DNA of 32,591 nt from an uncultured Neglectibacter sp. (GTDB lineage Bacteria; Bacillota; Clostridia; Oscillospirales; Acutalibacteraceae). Positions 2,062 to 13,316 of the stretch are shown here, in pieces. The stretch spans positions 1 to 32,591 of the forward strand of contig CAJFEW010000017.1 of the NCBI GenBank assembly GCA_904374805.1, given 5' to 3'. A model generated the notes under the pieces. The model was not told where the DNA came from. It saw only the letters and a list, made by a program, of their open reading frames with translations, and did no database searches. How positions within the stretch are numbered: the stretch's first letter is position 1; each line of letters starts with the position of its first letter. The position numbers were made by a program, and so were the translations under genes.

Positions 2062-3033
2062 TCACCGTTCCCTGTCCCGCTGGCGCTTGAGGTACAGCTC
2101 CAGGGCCTTCACAATGGTTTCCTCCATTTTCGCGGCGGGCGTCCCCGCTGGGAAAAACCTTGAAATTCTTTCTTTGGACATTTTAAACTGCTCCACCTGG
2201 TTAGGCTTTTTCTGTTCTAGGATGAAAAGGATCGTATCCCTAGCTACTCGCTGGCCCGGGGCTTTTCCCTCCGATAACTGCCGAAGCTGCAACGCTTGCG
2301 CGTGGGAGGGTGTGGCGTCCAGCTCCTCGATCAGGTCGAACAGGTCAAGCTGCTCCTCTTTTCGCAGGTAGGAAAGCTCCACCGCCGGGCGCAAAGCCAT
2401 TTGGGGCTTGCCAGGCTCCTTCAAAATAGAGTTGTCCACCAGGGAGAGCAGCTCGGGAATTAAGTTGGTTAGGCGGATGTAGCGTTGAATTTGAGTTTTT
2501 CCATCGGGACTTTCTGCTGCAAGCTCTATATTGGAGCGATGTCCTAATAACTTCGGCCCCAGTGGGGCCGAAGTTAAGTCAGACCGGAAACCCTGCCGTT
2601 TCATGGCGTCCAGCTTCATTTTATAGGCAAATGCCTTTTCGCTGGGGAGAATCTGCTCCCGCTGGAGGTTACTGTCCACCATGATGACAACAGCCTGGTC
2701 GTCGGTGAGGTCGCGGACGATGCAGGGGATTTCCCGCAAGCCTGCCAATTCCGCGGCGCGCTTGCGCCGATGACCGGAAACCATCTCGTAGCCGCCACCC
2801 TCCTTGAGCCGCACCAAAGCTGGCACCAGCACCCCGTTCTCCCGGACGCTTTGGGCCATCTCCTTCATGGCCTCGTCCATCCGCACCTGGAAGGGGTGGT
2901 TGGGAAACTCGCTGATGTCCTCCGGCGGCAGCAGCACCACCTTTTCAAGTTTGGCATCCGCCCGTTCCGCCTCGGTGGTGAACAGGTCATCGAGCGAGGG
3001 AAGGTTTAGATTGAATCCGCTGTTTTTCGCCAT
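2062..3033 (-). CDS. parB: ParB-family partition/nucleoid-occlusion protein of the ICE
   Basis: The product is 323 residues. I chose the ATG at 3033 because AAGGAGGTG lies just before it; the frame is open further upstream but only through parA. Residues about 30-100 form the ParB nuclease-like N-domain, including 'NPFQV'-type context ('FPNHPFQVRMDEAM') and the 'MVSGHRRKRAAELAG' box that binds CTP in characterised ParBs. A helix-turn-helix region follows ('TQIQRYIRLTNLIPELL'). It overlaps the end of parA by 47 bases, so the pair is one transcription unit. In the ICE it would stabilise the circular form or regulate element genes. A perfect 29-bp palindrome sits inside the coding region at 2548-2576. 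Confidence 0.9.
   Translation of the reverse strand: MAKNSGFNLNLPSLDDLFTTEAERADAKLEKVVLLPPEDISEFPNHPFQVRMDEAMKEMAQSVRENGVLVPALVRLKEGGGYEMVSGHRRKRAAELAGLREIPCIVRDLTDDQAVVIMVDSNLQREQILPSEKAFAYKMKLDAMKRQGFRSDLTSAPLGPKLLGHRSNIELAAESPDGKTQIQRYIRLTNLIPELLSLVDNSILKEPGKPQMALRPAVELSYLRKEEQLDLFDLIEELDATPSHAQALQLRQLSEGKAPGQRVARDTILFILEQKKPNQVEQFKMSKERISRFFPAGTPAAKMEETIVKALELYLKRQRDRER
2548..2576. repeat. Perfect 29-bp palindrome inside parB
   Basis: Fourteen-base arms (TAACTTCGGCCCCA and its complement) surround a single central G. On the parB message this forms a very stable hairpin. It encodes the residues LTSAPLGPKLL in the linker before the helix-turn-helix. Confidence 0.85.
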
Positions 3034-3817
3034 ACAGCACCTCCTTCGTGAAGGACTCGTAGGCCCCGGCCACTTTACTGCTGGGGTCGTAAGCATAGAT
3101 GCTCTTTCCCGCCGCGCTGACCTCGGCGGCCTTCACCGCCAGGGGAATCTGGCTTTGATAGATGCGGAGCACGCTGCCATAGTTGTTCCGCAGGGTTTCC
3201 GCCGTCTGCCGGGCCAGATTGGTGCGGTTGTCCACCAAAGTGAGGAGAACGCCGTCCACCCGCAAATTGGGGTTGATCTGCCGTTTCACTTTCCCGATGG
3301 TGTGCAGCAGCTGGGTCATACCCTTGGCGGGGAGATACTGGGCCTGGACGGGAATGATAACGCTGTCCGCCGCAGCCAAGGCGTTGACCGTGATCATGCC
3401 CAGAGAGGGCATACAGTCGATGAGGATGTAATCGTACTGGTTCCGCGCCTGGCACAACCCTTCCTTCAAGGCAAACTCCCTGCTCATGGCGGTAACCAGG
3501 GCCATCTCCATGGCGGAAAGCTCAATGTTAGAGGGCAGCAGGTCTACGCCTTCGCGGTGGTGGAGCAAGGCTGCTTGGATGTCCACCGGTTCATCCCGGA
3601 TAGTCTGTTCCACAAGGGTGGCTAGGGTGGCAGGCAGGTTATCTTGGTTTTGCCAGCCCAGGCAGGTGGTAAGGTCCCCCTGGGGATCGGCGTCCACCAA
3701 AAGGACACGTTTCCCCTGGCGGGCCAGGGCTACCCCCAGGTTGACAGTGGTGGTGGTTTTGCCGGTGCCGCCCTTCTGGTTAGCCAGGGCGATGATCCGG
3801 CAGTTGGGTTGATTCAT
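2987..3817 (-). CDS. parA: ParA-family partition ATPase of the ICE
   Basis: The product is 276 residues and starts at an ATG with AAAGGAGGA in front. It has the deviant Walker A motif KGGTGKTT at residues 15-22, the 'LLVDADPQGD' switch region and 'DYILIDCMPSLGMIT' as the Walker B region, all diagnostic for MinD/ParA/Soj ATPases. It would move or position ICE DNA together with the overlapping parB. A terminator hairpin lies about 65 bases upstream on the same strand (3873-3898). The parA promoter must therefore sit in the short space between them, or transcription reads through. Confidence 0.93.
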   Translation of the reverse strand: MNQPNCRIIALANQKGGTGKTTTTVNLGVALARQGKRVLLVDADPQGDLTTCLGWQNQDNLPATLATLVEQTIRDEPVDIQAALLHHREGVDLLPSNIELSAMEMALVTAMSREFALKEGLCQARNQYDYILIDCMPSLGMITVNALAAADSVIIPVQAQYLPAKGMTQLLHTIGKVKRQINPNLRVDGVLLTLVDNRTNLARQTAETLRNNYGSVLRIYQSQIPLAVKAAEVSAAGKSIYAYDPSSKVAGAYESFTKEVLYGEKQRIQSKPSLAR

Positions 3818-3872: not shown

Positions 3873-3898
3873 TGAAAAAAGCACCCTGGCGGGGTGCT
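3873..3898 (-). terminator. Terminator upstream of parA (minus strand)
   Basis: The arms AGCACCC/GGGTGCT (3880-3886 and 3892-3898) are followed on the minus strand by six T. The gene it should end is not adjacent: the sequence upstream on that strand is a cargo fragment. It fits instead as the original terminator of the 55-residue gene at 9177-9344. Confidence 0.7.
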
Positions 3899-3903
3899 CT
3901 TTT
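3885..3903. repeat. Left copy of a 19-bp direct repeat bounding the cargo segment
   Basis: CCTGGCGGGGTGCTCTTTT occurs here and again, exactly and in the same orientation, at 9153-9171. Here it forms half of the terminator upstream of parA. Confidence 0.9.
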
Positions 3904-3910
3904 GGCTGAT

Positions 3911-4213
3911 ATGGAACCCGTTATGGGACTTAATAGACATACAAATTACTCCGTATCGATTAGTCCTGGATCTTATGAATGGACGGCTAACTTTTATGTC
4001 GAAATCGGGGGTTCTGATCTGACAAGAACCTCTGCAGGTTTTTACAGCCCAGATGTAAGTGGAGGAAGTGACTACTTTACAGTTAGCAATCCAAAACTGG
4101 ATACACAAAAGAAACAACTTACTTGGACTGTCAAAGTAAACAGCGGCATTGATTTCGATTTCTCGCAGTTATATGGAACAAATATCAGCGCAATAACAAA
4201 CCAAAAGACCTAA
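3911..4213 (+). pseudogene. C-terminal fragment of a beta-rich, probably secreted protein
   Basis: This plus-strand frame starts immediately inside the left 19-bp repeat and ends at TAA 4211-4213. It is visibly more AT-rich than its neighbours. The sequence alternates polar and hydrophobic residues with many Ser, Thr, Gly and Tyr ('GSYEWTANFYVEI', 'SDYFTVSNPKL', 'KKQLTWTVKV'), which suggests a beta-sandwich domain of an exported protein. There is no ribosome site, signal peptide or plausible start, so it reads as the 3' remnant of a longer gene. A 10-bp tandem duplication (GACCTAATCA twice) covers its stop codon. I do not recognise the family. Confidence 0.45.
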
Positions 4214-4234
4214 TCAGACCTAATCACATAGAGA

Positions 4235-4267
4235 AAGGCTCCTGGCGTTTGCCAGGGGCCTTCTTTT
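4235..4267 (+). terminator. Terminator after the beta-rich fragment
   Basis: The arms at 4235-4246 and 4251-4262 have a four-base GTTT loop, with one unpaired position, and are followed by a T-rich tail. The retained terminator supports the view that a real gene once ended at 4213. Confidence 0.65.
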
Positions 4268-4271
4268 ACGC

Positions 4272-4805
4272 CTATTCTTTCACTTGGTACAACCCCGCCT
4301 CAATGAGTTTGTCCCACTCCGGCACCACGATTTTGATAGCGTGCCGGTCTGGGAACACATGCTTTTTCTGAGTGAACCAGCCGTTCTTCACCATTTCAGA
4401 AAATGCTGCCTCCACATTTTGCAAAGGCAGGTTGTGCTTTGTAGCCACATCGTTTGCCACCCGCAGAAAAGTCAGCAGCGCGTTAGGCCGGCGCTCCGCC
4501 ATTTCATCAAAGTAATCCACAATGAGCTGCCAGTAGATCCTCATTTGGGCTTCTTCATCGGGAAACTCCCTGCATTCGCTGGCAGCGTCTTTTAGAATCC
4601 CATACAAGATCACATTTTTACGTAAATCTTGAACCAAATACCTCACAGCCGGCGCGAAATGTCCATCCCCCGTGAAAAGAATAAAAGTCCTGGGAGAATG
4701 CCTGTCCGCAGCCGCCCGATAGATATAGTCCAGCATAACGAAGTCAGACATGTCTTTCTTATGGCTCCCAGGCAAACCAAATTGGGTTTCAATAAAACAA
4801 CCTGA
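4272..4805 (-). pseudogene. NYN-domain (LabA/DUF88-type) RNase-like protein, 5'-truncated
   Basis: The frame contains 'ETQFGLPGSHKKDMSDFVML', then 'TFILFTGDGHFAPAVRYL', which is the second half of a NYN/PIN-like nuclease fold (SHKK, DxxM and GDGHF motifs). About 100 helical residues follow, ending 'VVPEWDKLIEAGLY'. The N-terminal half of the fold, which carries the first catalytic aspartate, is absent: the frame is closed by TAA at 4806-4808 and the upstream 180 bases do not encode it in any frame I could follow. The only internal starts (a TTG at 4775, ATGs later) have no ribosome site. I call it a truncated gene, possibly once paired with the repressor gene upstream. NYN proteins cleave RNA in known cases; this copy is probably inactive. 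Confidence 0.6.
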
Positions 4806-4986
4806 TTAACAGCTGAAATCTTGTGGTTCTTGGGCGGGATTATGTGTTCCCTTCAGTTCAAAAAGAAACTCCAAAGAATAGTTGCGCAGCAACGTGACGT
4901 CGCTGAGTGTTAGAAAATTAACTAGCACGCTAGCATTCCTCCTTCCCAGTAGAAGGCGCGGAAATCTCGGCCGTAGACAGCCCGGT

Positions 4987-5374
4987 CTAAGAGCGCAGCA
5001 TCTCCTTTGCTGTCCGATAGATCTCTTGCCGGCTTGCGGGGTCGCAGCGGCGGAATATGGCAATCAAGGACTTCTCCTCTGGGCGGAGCTGGCCCAGAGA
5101 ATCAGGTTTCGCAGCCACTTTCTTTGGTGGTCTGCTTTTTGGCCGGGCACGCTCTATCTCTTCGGGATTGGATAGCAGCTCCACCAGTGCATCTACAGGA
5201 ATAGCGAATATCTTTGCCAGCTCTCTTATACGCTGGAGGTCTGGCTGCGTTTTTCCGGTTTCGTGAAAGGTATAGGTTGCTCGGTCTACATTAAGAGCGT
5301 CTGCCACCGCTTTTTGTGTGAGTCCACGTTCTATTCGCAGTTTCGACTTCTCCTGGGGTCTTGCATTGCATCAT
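4987..5374 (-). pseudogene. XRE-family (Cro/CI-type) repressor, apparently frameshifted near its start
   Basis: The main frame gives a clear helix-turn-helix ('RIERGLTQKAVADALNVDRA' and 'YTFHETGKTQPDLQRIRELA'), followed by a basic linker and a helical C-terminus. The first in-frame ATG (5307) would delete the first half of this domain. A proper start with an AGAGGTGAG site exists at 5374/5371 (ATGATG), but it is in another frame; the two frames would join at about 5340-5350 if one base were restored. A CTG start at 5340 is the alternative. I favour a frameshifted gene. It is divergent from the small regulator at 5597 across a repeated operator, the classical layout of a regulatory switch. Confidence 0.55.
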
Positions 5375-5524
5375 CTCACCTCTATGACTTATTGTGAATT
5401 TATTTCGCTAAACGCTGTAAAATGATTGGCAGACACCTGTGGGAACCCCCAAGGAAATCTGCCTATGGTTGGATGGTATTTTGCTTAAGGCACAACCCCT
5501 TTCTGTGTTTGAAAAGAAGTAGCT

Positions 5525-5588
5525 GGGGGTTATATCCCCTTAATAAACCTGATTATAACCCCCATACTAACGTAAAAAAGTATGGGGG
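5525..5588. promoter_or_regulatory. Cluster of GGGGGTTATA / GTATGGGGG inverted repeats (likely operator)
   Basis: GGGGGTTATA at 5525-5534 is mirrored by TATAACCCCC at 5554-5563. The last five bases of that copy also start CCCCCATAC (5559-5567), mirrored by GTATGGGGG at 5580-5588. The three half-sites overlap the likely promoter and the ribosome site of the XRE gene at 5597, so binding by that protein or its divergent partner could shut it off. Confidence 0.6.
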
Positions 5589-5596
5589 ATTCGTGG

Positions 5597-5800
5597 ATGA
5601 TTGTGTTTGACCGGCTCTGGGATGTCATGGAAAAACAAGGTGTTTCCACCTACCAGTTGCGAGAGAAGTGCGGCATTGACAGCCAAACCATCCGCCGCCT
5701 GCGGGCCAATGAAAACATCGAGACAAAAACGTTGGATAAATTGTGCCGCGCATTGTCCTGCCGTTTGGAGGACATTGCAGAGTATAGACCAGATCTTTGA
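5597..5800 (+). CDS. Small XRE-family transcriptional regulator
   Basis: The product is 67 residues from the ATG at 5597 (an ATG at 5582 is in frame but lacks a ribosome site, whereas GGGGGA lies eight bases before 5597). It is a single helix-turn-helix domain: 'LWDVMEKQGVSTYQLREKCG', 'IDSQTIRRLRANENIETKTL' and 'CRALSCRLEDIAEY'. This is the compact Cro/CI-like type common on ICEs and transposons. The upstream inverted repeats overlap its translation start, pointing to autoregulation. It lies divergent from the frameshifted repressor and may now be the only working regulator of the cargo. Confidence 0.8.
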   Translation: MIVFDRLWDVMEKQGVSTYQLREKCGIDSQTIRRLRANENIETKTLDKLCRALSCRLEDIAEYRPDL

Positions 5801-6117
5801 CGTTTCCTTGTATTTAGGAAACTTATCTAGCCGTCCTTTTTACTTACATCATCTTTAAGCTGAGAATAGCGATGTGTATGGCGGCAAAAGTTCTTAACCC
5901 GCGGATGTACCGGAAATTCTTTGACTCGACAAGGAGAAAGCTGGCGGATGTCCTTCTAGGTACAACGCGATTAAAGAAAAACTAATCAATTCCTACAAGC
6001 GAGAAGAAAATAGCAGTGAGCCGCCCTTGAATGTGCTATGGGTATTTGCTGATTTCTTTAGAGTCATAATGGATAAAAGCAGCGAGGATACACGCAGTAG
6101 GGTGTCCTCGCTTTTTT
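5801..6117 (+). other. Gene-poor stretch with remnants, ending in a terminator
   Basis: No convincing gene is seen. A weak hairpin (GTTTCC/GGAAAC, 5802-5822) follows the XRE gene. A 37-codon frame at 5872-5985, with several Arg/Lys and no ribosome site, may be debris. A strong terminator with arms AGCGAGGA/TCCTCGCT occupies 6081-6111 and is followed by six T, which insulates the surface-protein gene from upstream transcription. Confidence 0.5.
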
Positions 6118-6167
6118 GCGTAGACGAAAAAAATATGCGCAAACAACTCACACCTCGGAGAAAAATA

Positions 6168-6176
6168 TGGTATAAT
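6168..6176 (+). promoter_or_regulatory. Extended -10 promoter of the surface-protein gene
   Basis: TATAAT at 6171-6176 is preceded by TGG (extended -10). There is no good -35 at 17 bases (TCACAC). It would give a leader of roughly 135 bases. Confidence 0.55.
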
Positions 6177-6217
6177 ACTCCTTGTATTGGGAAATCCCCG
6201 GCGATCAATAGACGAAT

Positions 6218-6281
6218 GAGAAAGGCCATGGCCTTTCTCTGTTGTGGTTCCACAACAGAATTTCCCACTTTCGCGCGAAAG
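6218..6281 (+). promoter_or_regulatory. Three consecutive perfect palindromes in the leader of the surface-protein gene
   Basis: The three are GAGAAAGGCC-AT-GGCCTTTCTC (6218-6239), TGTTGTGG-TT-CCACAACA (6240-6257) and CTTTCGCGCGAAAG (6268-6281). All fall between the promoter and the ribosome site at about 6307-6313, so they would be transcribed as a row of hairpins. Confidence 0.75.
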
Positions 6282-6319
6282 AGATTGTCTCCCTCAGAGG
6301 AGAAAAAGGAGGAGTTACC

Positions 6320-9058
6320 TTGAAACAATTTTGGAGCAAATCGTTGGCCTGCCTGCTGTGCCTGGCGCTGCTGGCAGGGATGCTGCCTGTGGCGGCGCTG
6401 GCGGAGGATAATCCCCCGGCAAACGGCGAGGTCAGCCTGGCAGATGCGGCTACCGACACCCCTATAAAGATTAGTTCGGCAGAAAACCTTAAAAAGATAG
6501 GTACGGAACCCGGTTTTCCCATGGACGGCAGCTATGTTCTCACCGAGGACATAGACCTCAGGGGCGAGGAAAACCCGTGGAAGTCGATTGGAAAAGGCGG
6601 CAAATCCTTCACCGGCACCTTTGACGGAGATGGGCATACAATAAGCGGGCTGTATTTAAACTTCAGCAGCATCGGTGGAACAGACCCAGGCGCAGGCTTG
6701 TTCACATCTGTGGGTCAAGACGGCTCGGTAAAGAACCTGACTGTGGAAGGGAAAATCGACCCCACTGGACTTGAACGCTCCTCTATTGGCGGCGTCGTGG
6801 GAGTAAACAACGGCGGCACAATCAGCAGCTGTACCGGCAGCGTGGTCATCAACGGTAATGCCAATTTCTCTGTTGGCGGCGTCGTAGGAGCGAATAGCGG
6901 TGGCACAATCAGCAGCTGCACCGGCAGCGTGGTCATCAACGGTAATGCCAATTTCTCTGTTGGCGGCATCGTGGGGTCTAGCGAAAACGGCACCATCGAG
7001 AACTGCCACAACACCGGCAGTATCAACGTCACCTGTAGCAGTGCTGGTTCCATGACTGGCATTGGCGGCATCGTTGGACTGACAAACAACGGCACTGTAG
7101 AGAACTGCGAGAACACCGGCAATGTCACCGTAAAAGGTAACGCCGACGGCACCGGCGGTATTGTGGGGTATGCTTTGGGAGGCAGCAAGGTCAGCAACTG
7201 CCGCAACAGCGGCTCTATCGATGGAAATAAAAGCAAAACCGGCGGCATCGTGGGGGAAAACTACGGCGCTGTTCTTAAGTGCTACAACACCGGTGACGTC
7301 CGCAGCGACGGCACAACAGGCGGCATTGCAGGAAGAAATGTTAGTGAAAACAGCGGCTCCGGCAGCACCGTTGAGAACTGCTACAACATAGGTGACGTCA
7401 CAGGCGCCGTCAGCGGCAGCGGCGACGTTGGCGGCATCGTGGGGTATAACAACAACAGCGAGAACTTTGACTCTAAAATCAAGAATTGCTACAATACCGG
7501 CGCTGTCATCAGCGGAAACAGCAGCAACGTTGGGGGCGTTGTGGGACAAATTGAAACAGGCGATGTCAGCGACTGCTATTACCTCAGGCAAGAGGGGCTG
7601 CCTGGCATTGGCAGCGTCACCATTGAAACCGGTACAAAAGTTGAAAATATTATACAAAAAGCCGCCGAGCAGTTTGCTTCCGGCGAGGTGGCTTGGCTGC
7701 TGCAAAGCGGGCAGGCTGAGCCGGTTTGGGGGCAGCAAAACCTCGGAGATGCTGACAGTTTACCCGAACTGACCAGCAAAAAGGCTTACAGCGTCATACA
7801 GGTTACCTTTAAAATAAGCAAAGAAGATTCTCAGCCTTATACTGTGTACACCACCCCCGGCAGCACAGTGACCTTCCCCGCCGACCCCGAAGCGCCGGAA
7901 GGCAAGGCCTTTGCCGGCTGGTATAGCGACGATACAAAGTGCGAAAGCGGCGCAACATTCACGAAGGACACAACGCTGACCGCGAAGTTTAAAACAGCCT
8001 ATACGGTCACGGTAAACGGCAGCTATGCCGCCGGGACGGGCGCGGGCAGCTATCTTGCGGGTGCAAGCGTCACCGTCAGCGCCGGTGCGCGGCCGGGCTA
8101 CCGCTTCGCCGGCTGGACGGCGGAGGGCGTCACCCTCACCAACGCCAGCGCGGAGACGGTCACCTTTGTAATGCCGGCCAGCAATGTCACCCTGACGGCG
8201 TCGTGGGACTACATCGTCATCCCCAGCGACCCTACCTACCCGCCTACCATTGACGAGCCGGAAAACGGCACTGTGACCACCAGCCCCAGCCGCCCGGAGG
8301 AAGGGGATGTGGTGACCATCACCCCCAAGCCGGACGAGGGCTTTGAGGTGGATGAAATCCTGGTGAAAGACGAGGACGGCAAGGAGATTAAGGTCACCCA
8401 GAACCCGGACGGCACCTACACCTTCACCCAGCCCGACGGGAAAGTGACCATCACCGTGACCTTCCGCTGCGACGGCGGCGAGCTTTGCCCCGGCCACCAC
8501 CTGACGGACGTGCGCAAGGACGCCTGGTACCATGCCGCCGTGGACTATGTGGTAGAACAGGGCATCATGGAGGGCATGAGCGCTACAACCTTCTCTCCCA
8601 ACACAGAGGTGACCCGCGCCCAGGCGGTGCAGATTCTCTACAACCTGGAGGGCAAGCCGGACCTCTCCGACGAGAACCTGGGCTACCCCTACGAGGATGT
8701 GGACGCGCAAGCCTGGTACGGCGATGCGGTGTACTGGGCCAGGATCACCGGTGTAGCCATCGGCTACGGGGATGGGACTTTCCAGCCCGGCGATAACATC
8801 ACCCGCCAGGAGTTCGCTCAAATGCTCTACAACTACGCCAAGTATAAGGACTATGACTTGACTGCCCAGGGTGACCTTTCCCAGTTCCCGGACAGCGGCA
8901 GCGTAGCCGATTGGGCGGAAGCAGCCATGAGCTGGGCCAACGGCAACGAGCTGATTAACGGCCACGACAACGGCACCATCGACGCGGGAGGCACGGCTAT
9001 TCGCGCCCAGGCGGCAAGTATCTTGATGCGGTTCGACCAGAACCTGGTGAAAAATTGA
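6320..9058 (+). CDS. Secreted surface protein: GLUG repeats, InlB-like repeats and three SLH domains
   Basis: The product is 912 residues from a TTG start at 6320; AAAGGAGG stands seven bases before it and the signal peptide begins exactly there (basic start, hydrophobic core, 'ALA' cleavage near residue 28). Residues about 95-425 are GLUG-type repeats ('GGIVG' and 'NCYNTG' units), the beta-solenoid pattern of adhesins and peptidases. Residues about 490-630 are two InlB/Flg_new-type repeats ('FAGWYSDD', 'FAGWTAEG'), followed by a further beta domain to about 715. Three SLH domains end the protein (about 725-907; 'WYHAAVDYVVEQGIMEG', 'AWYGDAVYWARITGVAIGYG', 'WANGNELINGHDNG') and should bind pyruvylated secondary cell-wall polymer. 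It is ICE cargo and probably alters attachment or surface identity of the host. Confidence 0.9.
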   Translation: MKQFWSKSLACLLCLALLAGMLPVAALAEDNPPANGEVSLADAATDTPIKISSAENLKKIGTEPGFPMDGSYVLTEDIDLRGEENPWKSIGKGGKSFTGTFDGDGHTISGLYLNFSSIGGTDPGAGLFTSVGQDGSVKNLTVEGKIDPTGLERSSIGGVVGVNNGGTISSCTGSVVINGNANFSVGGVVGANSGGTISSCTGSVVINGNANFSVGGIVGSSENGTIENCHNTGSINVTCSSAGSMTGIGGIVGLTNNGTVENCENTGNVTVKGNADGTGGIVGYALGGSKVSNCRNSGSIDGNKSKTGGIVGENYGAVLKCYNTGDVRSDGTTGGIAGRNVSENSGSGSTVENCYNIGDVTGAVSGSGDVGGIVGYNNNSENFDSKIKNCYNTGAVISGNSSNVGGVVGQIETGDVSDCYYLRQEGLPGIGSVTIETGTKVENIIQKAAEQFASGEVAWLLQSGQAEPVWGQQNLGDADSLPELTSKKAYSVIQVTFKISKEDSQPYTVYTTPGSTVTFPADPEAPEGKAFAGWYSDDTKCESGATFTKDTTLTAKFKTAYTVTVNGSYAAGTGAGSYLAGASVTVSAGARPGYRFAGWTAEGVTLTNASAETVTFVMPASNVTLTASWDYIVIPSDPTYPPTIDEPENGTVTTSPSRPEEGDVVTITPKPDEGFEVDEILVKDEDGKEIKVTQNPDGTYTFTQPDGKVTITVTFRCDGGELCPGHHLTDVRKDAWYHAAVDYVVEQGIMEGMSATTFSPNTEVTRAQAVQILYNLEGKPDLSDENLGYPYEDVDAQAWYGDAVYWARITGVAIGYGDGTFQPGDNITRQEFAQMLYNYAKYKDYDLTAQGDLSQFPDSGSVADWAEAAMSWANGNELINGHDNGTIDAGGTAIRAQAASILMRFDQNLVKN
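6788..6961 (+). repeat. Two 87-bp tandem repeats in the GLUG region
   Basis: Units at 6788-6874 and 6875-6961 are nearly identical (29 residues each, differing at a handful of bases). This indicates recent duplication and likely copy-number variation. Confidence 0.9.
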
Positions 9059-9071
9059 ATTTTTATGCGGA

Positions 9072-9095
9072 GGCCGGGAGCAATCCCGGCCTTTT
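9072..9095 (+). terminator. Terminator of the surface-protein gene
   Basis: Arms GGCCGGGA/TCCCGGCC with a GCAA tetraloop are followed by TTTT, 14 bases after the stop codon. Confidence 0.85.
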
Positions 9096-9123
9096 GCGTA
9101 AGCGTCAAATGAGAGGAAAGAAC

Positions 9124-9149
9124 GAGCCGCACACTGCTGTGTGCGGCTC
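9124..9149. repeat. Perfect 11-bp-arm hairpin at the right end of the cargo
   Basis: GAGCCGCACAC and its complement enclose TGCT, ending four bases before the right 19-bp repeat. It has only a weak T tail on the minus strand, so it may be a terminator or a recombination end. Confidence 0.7.
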
Positions 9150-9152
9150 CAG

Positions 9153-9171
9153 CCTGGCGGGGTGCTCTTTT
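9153..9171. repeat. Right copy of the 19-bp direct repeat bounding the cargo segment
   Basis: Identical over 19 bases, in the same orientation, to 3885-3903. It lies in the 3' untranslated part of the 55-residue gene, where the left copy would complete a terminator. Confidence 0.9.
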
Positions 9172-9176
9172 CCTCA

Positions 9177-9344
9177 TTATGTACGCAGCTTCTTTTCCGA
9201 CTTTTTGATGAGGTGTAGGAACACTTCGTCCACCAGGTAGGTGTCCCGCCCCTCTTCCAGCCATTTGTTCCGTAATTCATTGAGGCCGTGAAGCAGGACG
9301 TTGGCTTCGGTAGGGGTAAGGTTTAGGCGGATGGTTTGTTTCAT
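9177..9344 (-). CDS. 55-residue ICE protein of unknown function
   Basis: The gene starts at ATG 9344 behind GAGGAGG and has a near-consensus promoter 30 bases further up. The product opens 'MKQTIRLNLTPTEANVLLHG' and continues with charged helices to 'LIKKSEKKLRT'. The pattern resembles short helical proteins that recur in Clostridia ICEs and phages; I cannot name a function. Downstream on the same strand comes the right 19-bp repeat. If the cargo were removed, this gene would be followed directly by an intact terminator and then parA. Confidence 0.7.
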   Translation of the reverse strand: MKQTIRLNLTPTEANVLLHGLNELRNKWLEEGRDTYLVDEVFLHLIKKSEKKLRT

Positions 9345-9373
9345 GGGGTGGCCTCCTCTCTTTTGATGGTTTC

Positions 9374-9403
9374 ATTATAGAGAAAAAGACGGATTTTTGC
9401 CAA
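9374..9403 (-). promoter_or_regulatory. Promoter of the 55-residue gene
   Basis: TTGGCA (9403-9398), an 18-base spacer and TATAAT (9379-9374) on the minus strand, about 30 bases before the start codon. Confidence 0.75.
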
Positions 9404-9560
9404 TGTGCGAATCGATGAGGCCAATTTTACCATTTTTGCAACATTGCCGATGGCTGCAAACCGCATAAAACCTGAGTTTTTCCAGGCCCCTTATGGTTCT
9501 TACTTTCTTTAGGACTTCCTACCTTAAGGGCGGCAAGGTCGGCTATCTACATACAGCAAA

Positions 9561-9590
9561 CGGCGATACTCCTGCTCTGGAATATCGCCG
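9561..9590. repeat. Inverted repeat near the ICE end
   Basis: CGGCGATA at 9561-9568 is mirrored by TATCGCCG at 9583-9590 across 14 bases. It lies between the last ICE gene and the attachment junction and could be an integrase or excisionase site. The surrounding 9404-9621 holds no gene I can support. Confidence 0.4.
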
Positions 9591-9621
9591 CTTATGTTCT
9601 CCTATATCGAAACTTGTCACA

Positions 9622-9753
9622 TCAAGGTTCTTTCGAAAATGGTGTAGTAGTGGTGTAGTAAGCGCCTTTTCGCTTCGTGAAACCCTTGATTTTACTGGCT
9701 TTTCCGGGATTTTTAAGGATACTGCCGTGGCACACGAAAAGTATTTTTATCAT
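9622..9753 (-). pseudogene. 5' end of a low-molecular-weight protein tyrosine phosphatase fused to ICE sequence (attachment junction)
   Basis: A 43-codon frame starts at ATG 9753 behind AAAGGAG. Its first twelve residues, MIKILFVCHGSI, match the start and P-loop entry of LMW tyrosine phosphatases (VCxGNxCRS). From there the sequence diverges: 'LKNPGKASKIKGF', then 'YYTTTTPFSKEP' and a stop, with no catalytic Arg, no Asp and none of the remaining fold of about 140 residues. The simplest reading is that the ICE integrated within the P-loop codons and supplied the tail. I recall similar chimeric short proteins at ICE ends in other Clostridia. The remaining phosphatase codons should lie at the far end of the ICE. 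The direct repeat GGTGTAGTA (9641-9649, 9652-9660) encodes the threonine run. Confidence 0.65.
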
Positions 9754-9936
9754 GAGTTTAAAGCTCCTTTGCTTCTTCTAGTTTTTCTCGGAGAATACAT
9801 TTATCCGGTTGTCGTACGCCGAGCTGTTTTATTCTAAGGACCCTCCATTCCAAACCCCGGGCTATACCTTCATCTTTCTCCCCGTTCCCGGAAAAATATT
9901 GCTGCAGAGAACACAGAGGCTGCTATTTCGCAGAAA

Positions 9937-9968
9937 ACACTCCCAAGGGATTCTCCCTTTGAGAGTGT
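9937..9968 (-). terminator. Terminator of the PAP2 gene
   Basis: Arms around ACACTC/GAGTGT (9937-9942, 9963-9968) with further pairing inside are followed by TGTTTTC on the minus strand, 50 bases past the PAP2 stop. The rest of 9754-10015 shows no gene. Confidence 0.55.
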
Positions 9969-13165: not shown

Positions 13166-13194
13166 TTGACAAAACCGACGATTTGTGGTATAAG
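13166..13194 (+). promoter_or_regulatory. Promoter of the riboswitch-FAD dehydrogenase unit
   Basis: TTGACA (13166-13171), a 17-base spacer and TATAAG (13189-13194), placed just ahead of the riboswitch aptamer. Confidence 0.85.
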
Positions 13195-13209
13195 GTTTAC
13201 TTGGCAAAT

Positions 13210-13316
13210 GTGTTATATAGGTTCCCGACTTGGGGGAACGTTTCTACCGGCCGCCTGAAGGCCGACTATAACGCGCCGCATCAGGCGGGCGTATAGCCGG
13301 ATTGGGCGGCTTTTTT
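13210..13316 (+). promoter_or_regulatory. Purine riboswitch, guanine type, with downstream terminator
   Basis: The aptamer occupies 13210-13274. P1 is GTGTTA/TAACGC. P2 is GTTCCC/GGGAAC with the seven-base loop GACTTGG. The conserved junction is TTTCTACC at 13241-13248. P3 is GGCC/GGCC with loop GCCTGAA, and the closing junction is GACTAT. The GG of loop 2 can pair with the CC of loop 3, as in known structures. The specificity base in GACTAT is C (13266), which in characterised examples selects guanine or hypoxanthine; U would select adenine. A terminator (AGCCG/CGGCT at 13295-13311, then T) follows, so ligand binding should switch the downstream gene off. Confidence 0.9.

Follow-up and report, generated by a model that had tools for sequence, protein, structure and literature searches.

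A 19-bp direct repeat marks a probable 5,249-bp insertion at a terminator of a Clostridia integrative and conjugative element

Introduction

Genomic islands moved by tyrosine recombinases are flanked by direct repeats of about 15–25 bp, the usual length of an attachment (att) core, for which 19 bp is an ordinary size, and smaller elements are known to integrate into integrative and conjugative elements (ICEs). Clostridia ICEs also acquire cargo, that is, accessory genes inserted into an intergenic gap of their backbone. In the case of insertion sequences, foreign DNA becomes flanked by a direct repeat of its target. In the IS1202 family, some elements make target duplications longer than 15 bp, and the terminal inverted repeats have 24–26 bp (PMC10132070). 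Here we compare with these systems a 5,249-bp segment in an ICE of an uncultured Neglectibacter sp., carried by a stretch of 32,591 nucleotides (GenBank assembly GCA_904374805.1, contig CAJFEW010000017.1, positions 1 to 32,591; below, the window). The segment separates the backbone gene parA from a gene of 55 residues and is flanked by an exact 19-bp direct repeat.

As in other Clostridia ICEs with cargo, the backbone at this locus comprises parA, parB and the 55-residue gene, and the accessory genes occupy an intergenic gap. However, the insert has no defined borders, is found in one genome only and is accompanied by a duplication of 19 bp that covers half of a terminator. As in insertion sequences, including those of the IS1202 family, a direct repeat of the target surrounds foreign DNA, but neither terminal inverted repeats nor a recognised transposase accompany it. 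The length of the repeat would also suit an att-flanked island, whereas the window has no recognised integrase and no recurring att site, and the left end of the segment falls within a gene.

The 19-bp Repeat and the Empty Site in Relatives

The sequence CCTGGCGGGGTGCTCTTTT occurs at positions 3885–3903 and 9153–9171 of the window on the same strand, as an exact 19-bp direct repeat that scans of both the window and the genome confirmed. When up to three mismatches were allowed, the window had no further sites (chance expectation 0.01), and with up to two mismatches these were the only positions across the source genome (2.27 Mb, a draft of 100 contigs). Exact direct repeats of at least 19 appeared in none of 200 resamples of the window under a Markov-1 model, which, together with the low expectation, indicates that the pair is not due to chance. 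Every exact repeat of the window longer than 19 lies inside either of two repetitive genes. With one mismatch the pair can be extended to 22 nt (3882–3903 and 9150–9171), an extension that may have arisen by chance.

A complete bidirectional terminator (about 3875–3903; minus strand, −16.4 kcal/mol with a z of −3.9) has the left copy as its 3' half and a single-copy counterpart in the related genome G003. The right copy represents half of the original terminator only: it retains the A/T tract, one arm and the loop but has lost the second arm apart from two bases. Read on the minus strand, the duplicated 19 bp thus consist of the A-tract, the 5' arm, the loop and two bases of the 3' arm. Both window copies contain CTGGCGGGG, as opposed to CTGACGGG at the corresponding position of G003, which indicates that a single local site gave rise to both, as a target duplication would. 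A perfect hairpin with 11-bp arms, described earlier as abutting the right copy, is located at 9124–9149, 3 nt before that copy, and resembles a terminator on the minus strand. It was also considered as a mobile end that recurs elsewhere, but viral contigs did not contain it.

A search with the right flank in 99 genomes, the source genome among them, gave matches in three others, G003, G013 and G045, of which the last, 23 bp long, is uninformative. In G003 and G013, both of the same genus as the source, the 55-residue gene, a single terminator and parA follow each other, and the two genes are 93 bp and 101 bp apart, respectively. On the empty-site contig of G003 (C136, locus L045) the ParA protein is 91% identical to that of the window, and the 55-residue protein, encoded 93 bp from parA, is 96% identical. 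The alignments of the two window flanks to G003 overlap by about 20 bp at the terminator, as is expected of a single copy and, except for the loop, both flanks align with the empty site as far as the repeat boundary. The distance between the 55-residue gene and parA in the window is 5,363 bp; subtraction of 93 bp leaves 5,270 bp, which is near the sum of the segment and one repeat copy (5,249 + 19), the loop being different. The segment itself (3904–9152) is missing from the homologous interval of the relatives. As the relatives hold an empty site with a single terminator, the insertion is the derived state, and the ancestral order of the 55-residue gene, terminator and parA, put forward in the preliminary description together with the suggestion to look for a single-copy empty site, is supported. 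We conclude that the window very probably carries a real 5,249-bp insertion with a 19-bp target duplication.

Searches for Mobility, a Donor and Second Copies

The preliminary description left open whether the segment was a cassette moved by an enzyme encoded elsewhere or the trace of one insertion event. As it had stated, no recombinase was found inside: neither a recombinase nor a transposase was recognised among 11 open reading frames (ORFs) of the insert (6 and 5 further ones), some small ORFs being outside the test. By eye, no terminal inverted repeats were seen between the insert ends (60 nt at each end). The left end of the insert falls within a gene, a position not expected of a cassette with defined ends.

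Among 398 genomes of the bacterial family (six of the same genus, counting the source), the 19-mer was present only in the source genome, and it was absent from viral contigs, which ruled it out as a common terminator sequence scattered through genomes. G003 and G013 are outside this set, and their single sites have a sequence other than the 19-mer. No site was found at which two copies of CCTGGCGGGGTGCTCTTTT enclose other cargo. The search for a second copy of the segment in its own genome returned, apart from the self match, only paralogues of its surface-layer homology (SLH) gene on contigs C42 and C45 and a 26-bp terminator match. The left 2.4 kb, compared with 250 family genomes with two candidates scored per genome, gave only short single-gene pieces, although weak pieces could be missed in this way. 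Matches were obtained in 38 genomes including the source, in 34 of the 37 others through the region of a regulator gene with an HTH_26 domain; one of these 34 had also a 136-bp piece of the NYN-domain gene and another a piece of the XRE-family gene, and the remaining three had a short XRE or other match only. The segment was not found in plasmids, phages had two short matches only (98 and 50 bp), and in viral contigs no relative of the SLH, NYN, DUF5626-like or 55-residue proteins was confirmed.

Taken together, the uniqueness of the 19-mer, the absence of the unit from the other genomes, plasmids, phages and viral contigs searched, the lack of an inverted repeat and of a recognised recombinase, and the end within a gene are better explained by a single illegitimate insertion than by a site-specific cassette, and the reading as a mobile cassette is not supported, although an enzyme acting in trans is conceivable. 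A single insertion is known, with no second duplication length for comparison. The event is of an ordinary kind with an unusually clean footprint, a repeat for which the empty site has been sequenced, and is not evidence of a mobile cassette.

Contents of the Segment

The genes listed for the segment in the preliminary description hold by Pfam. At the left junction, which cuts its 5' side, there is a 3' fragment of a secreted DUF5626-like gene (3905–4213, plus strand) encoding the last 102 residues (Pfam DUF5626, E 0.0023, below the curated cut-off); in a search of 198 genomes it had no relative in the 197 other than its own. It is followed on the minus strand by a 5'-truncated NYN-domain gene (4272–4775; Pfam NYN, 2.2e-5) and by a truncated and frameshifted XRE-family regulator gene (4987–5307; HTH_3, 3.4e-5). 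A relative of the NYN gene (44% identical) is present in G010 (contig C21), where relatives of the NYN and XRE genes lie on one contig about 6 kb apart, in an arrangement unlike that of the window.

An intact gene for a small Cro/C1-type regulator (5582–5800, plus strand; HTH_26, 1.9e-17) is widespread in the family. This gene and the DNA just upstream, jointly at 5524–5793, have matches in 34 of 249 other family genomes, and the upstream DNA contains a hairpin, CCCCCATACT/AGTATGGGGG, that adjoins the start of the gene. The regulator has a weak similarity to the VanU model, far below the cut-off.

The main cargo is an intact gene for a secreted surface protein with GLUG, InlB-like and SLH repeats or domains (6320–9058, plus strand; Pfam Glug, Flg_new_2 and SLH). 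Its DNA is 82% identical to G012 (contig C227) over 8563–9097 and 70% identical to the paralogue on C42 of its own genome over 8266–9103, and the first terminator of both these genes is nearly the same as in the window, where it forms a hairpin at 9072–9091 (plus strand) that is common to the SLH genes of relatives. When the end of the SLH gene was searched in 29 genomes of the genus, 18 matched, including the source, and the closest homology stopped at the SLH terminator. Judged by its sequence, the SLH gene is genus-like. The segment is thus a mosaic and partly decayed, as it combines this genus-like gene with a fragment that has no relatives and with broken NYN and XRE genes.

The interior had been said to differ in style from the ICE backbone, which holds in part. 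The left part of the segment has a guanine-plus-cytosine content of 46.6%, as compared to 57.9% in the SLH gene and 56.6% in the ICE, and the dinucleotide signature of the repetitive SLH gene (124) is the only one outside the range of its own genome (37 pieces, mean 60, standard deviation 18, maximum 95). The signature of the left part (67), however, is inside that range, and therefore a foreign origin is not demonstrated by composition. In an Rfam scan the segment had no match at the gathering score and one sub-threshold match.

Cargo in the Same Interval of Related ICEs

A ParA scan of genome contigs gave at least 591 stretches, at least 565 of them encoding relatives, and the best 80 were taken for a survey of the interval between the 55-residue gene and parA. 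Based on a profile built from the 55-residue family, a member of this family was located upstream of parA, within the DNA retrieved, in 36 of these 80, at a distance of 93–164 bp (7 loci), 359–623 bp (18 loci) or at least 849 bp (11 loci, including L119, of which 36% is N). In a separate search the family was present in 80 of 398 family genomes. Sixty of more than 100 listed places were retrieved; parA was in reach in 11, in ten at 135–263 bp and in one at 498 bp, and the other 49 had no parA within the retrieved stretch, many because the contig ends. All 17 short-spacer sites measured besides the window (93–263 bp) are empty, about 12 of them being distinct (L047, L048, L049 and L191 are near copies, as are L175 and L178, and L206 and L218); occupied sites of this kind would be under-counted wherever contigs break.

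Repeats of 15–22 nt more than 300 bp apart were found upstream of parA in six other loci of the best 80 (L065, L066, L078, L081, L113 and L119). The one in L119 is an assembly gap of N, and that in L113 lies inside what is presumably a RhuM-like gene. L113 also contains, at 9316 and 9749, an inverted repeat, ACTTCCGTGCA/TGCACGGAAGT, within a short ORF upstream of parA, part of which recurs 433 bp away as an 18-nt direct repeat. L081 is a true counterpart of the window, though with other cargo: between parA and the gene of the 55-residue family it has, at 8720–9940, an ORF6N gene that is flanked by an imperfect copy (92 nt, 78%) of the terminator region.

Cargo occupies the interval in 10 of the 36 loci. 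Apart from the ORF6N gene of L081, it consists of a flavodoxin-like gene with a second ORF (L073), an Na/H exchanger-like gene (L076), a streptomycin-adenylyltransferase-like and a phosphorylase-like gene (L079 and L086), a 73-aa ORF without a name from the search (L083), the same ORF with an IS91-type transposase (L084), two GNAT genes (L090), two methyltransferase-like genes (L107), and a 56-aa ORF, likewise without a name (L082). In all ten the cargo ORFs are antisense to parA, the transposon genes of L084 excepted. Seven loci (L076, L079, L082, L083, L084, L086 and L090) with five kinds of cargo have both borders fixed: one is GACAAAYTGRAATTT, which the transposon splits in L084, and the other is AAATTC, two variable bases and ATTTKTC, so that the two form a near inverted repeat. 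L107 and L073 match the borders in part, and the window lacks these constant inverted borders. The flanks of L082 and L083 are 99–100% identical and their cargo is different. The pattern of a promoter-like stretch beside the GACAAAYTGRAATTT border was found in 4 of 291 genomes of the class, in each case with both borders and a known kind of cargo (exchanger in L258, 73-aa ORF in L259, GNAT in L260 and 56-aa ORF in L261).

Homologous exchange between ICEs, each with cargo gained at one site, is possible, but the exactness of the borders is not accounted for. We consider it very doubtful that the interval is a general landing slot of a widespread family of Clostridia ICEs, in which an enzyme supplied in trans would swap small antisense cargo units between terminators or inverted borders on either side, and of which the window would be a large, decayed instance made at a terminator. 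The presence of cargo in this interval of related ICEs, in one case a streptomycin-adenylyltransferase-like gene and in one sub-group different genes with constant borders, is a side result that may outweigh the original finding; it makes the gain and swapping of cargo by ICEs with no resident enzyme directly testable. Among the papers listed in literature searches, judged by titles and the beginnings of abstracts, none described the interval as a slot for cargo, which is not proof of novelty. A pemK RNA (RF02913, 70 bits) was detected at 9779–9836 of L090, the one locus scanned for this, in the roughly 500-bp spacer upstream of its parA; this spacer aligns with the spacers of several other ICEs.

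Mechanism and Alternative Explanations

In the target hairpin, the duplication reaches slightly beyond the loop. The insert itself stops, on its right, 3 nt after a hairpin and has no hairpin on its left. Based on this geometry we propose, with a confidence that does not go beyond an even balance, that the segment arrived once, by illegitimate recombination linked to repair or replication, at the terminator hairpin. For example, synthesis would have copied the A-tract, the 5' arm and the loop, which correspond to the duplicated part, and would have stalled at the 3' arm. It could then have continued on donor DNA with a hairpin at its own end before resuming where the target hairpin begins, leaving the 19-bp duplication. 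Alternatively, DNA captured in a break with widely staggered ends that were then filled in could have had a similar outcome.

After such an event the 55-residue gene would have lost its own terminator and gained the hairpin at 9124–9149, which is terminator-like on its strand, parA would keep the old terminator upstream, and the SLH gene would have its own at 9072–9091. The position was probably tolerated since the gap separates two transcription units of the backbone and the cargo brought terminators. Owing to the latter, the 55-residue gene and parA would be insulated, and this insulation may explain the persistence of the segment, which does not appear to be self-mobile and would travel passively with the ICE. 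The locus appears to present a terminator hairpin as the breakpoint at which an ICE acquired a surface-protein gene.

Several points weigh against this account. A direct repeat of 19 bp would be equally ordinary as an att core. The genomes searched gave no donor locus with which the breakpoints could be compared for homology. The case for template switching comes from geometry, and the left end offers no hairpin. Finally, this interval holds cargo in other ICEs of the family, in some of them with borders that are precise and constant, and the site may therefore not be accidental.

The alternative that survives best, unlikely as we find it, is that the segment is the relic of a small island or mobilizable element that integrated site-specifically into the terminator through a 19-bp att core and later lost its integrase. 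Such an origin would suit the size of the repeat, the ability of smaller elements to enter ICEs, the identity of the two copies and the decay of the interior genes. However, no integrase or piece of one was recognised in the 11 insert ORFs, the 19-mer is absent from the 397 other family genomes and from viral contigs, the left end is within a gene, and no related island was found in the genomes, plasmids and phages searched.

There is a small chance that the draft assembly fused unrelated pieces via the 19-mer. A draft of 100 contigs and a repeat length near the shortest overlaps of some assemblers leave room for such a chimera, which would require, however, that the foreign piece had the 19-mer at each end, and this sequence occurs nowhere else; moreover, the flanks match the empty site up to the repeat edge, the loop apart, and the SLH part is genus-like.

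We regard as still less probable an insertion by a transposase, supplied in trans or since lost, that makes long target duplications. No transposase was recognised in the 11 insert ORFs and, by eye, the insert ends share no inverted repeat, whereas the IS1202 family, in which some elements do give duplications longer than 15 bp, has terminal inverted repeats of 24–26 bp (PMC10132070).

Least credible is a system of cassettes mobilised in trans that uses the interval as a landing slot in this ICE family. In its favour, cargo ORFs antisense to parA are present there in 10 of the 36 surveyed loci (the L084 transposon genes excepted), the SLH, HTH_26 and DUF5626 pieces of the window have the same orientation, and in L081 copies of the terminator region (92 nt, 78%) surround the cargo. 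However, the GACAAAYTGRAATTT and AAATTCAAATTTGTC borders seen in the precise sub-group are missing from the window, where the NYN and XRE pieces have the orientation of parA, and 17 of the 17 other short-spacer sites measured are empty.

Backbone Genes and ICE Context

The neighbours of the insertion belong to the backbone of the ICE, which we take to be Tn1549-like, and are all encoded on the minus strand. They are a parB-like gene (2062–3096; Pfam ParB_N, 1.7e-20; NCBIfam parB_part), parA (2987–3817; Pfam AAA_31, 7.4e-60), which neighbours the insertion, and, on the other side, the 55-residue gene (9177–9344), a member of a small conserved family that has no Pfam or NCBIfam name. In G013 (L046), the homologous backbone genes are followed downstream by genes for a relaxase and the coupling protein of a type IV secretion system. 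The ParA and ParB genes of the window and these transfer genes of L046 place the backbone in a conjugative element, the window's own transfer genes being off the contig.

A second member of the 55-residue family is encoded in the source genome (G000, contig C56, 4742–4897; L161), just before a gene for a type IV secretion coupling protein and with no parA in the 11 kb retrieved downstream, which points to a second conjugative element or module. Farther along the window, a purine riboswitch (RF00167) was found at 13193–13288, ahead of an ORF at 13315, with a score of 40.1 bits that is barely over the gathering score.

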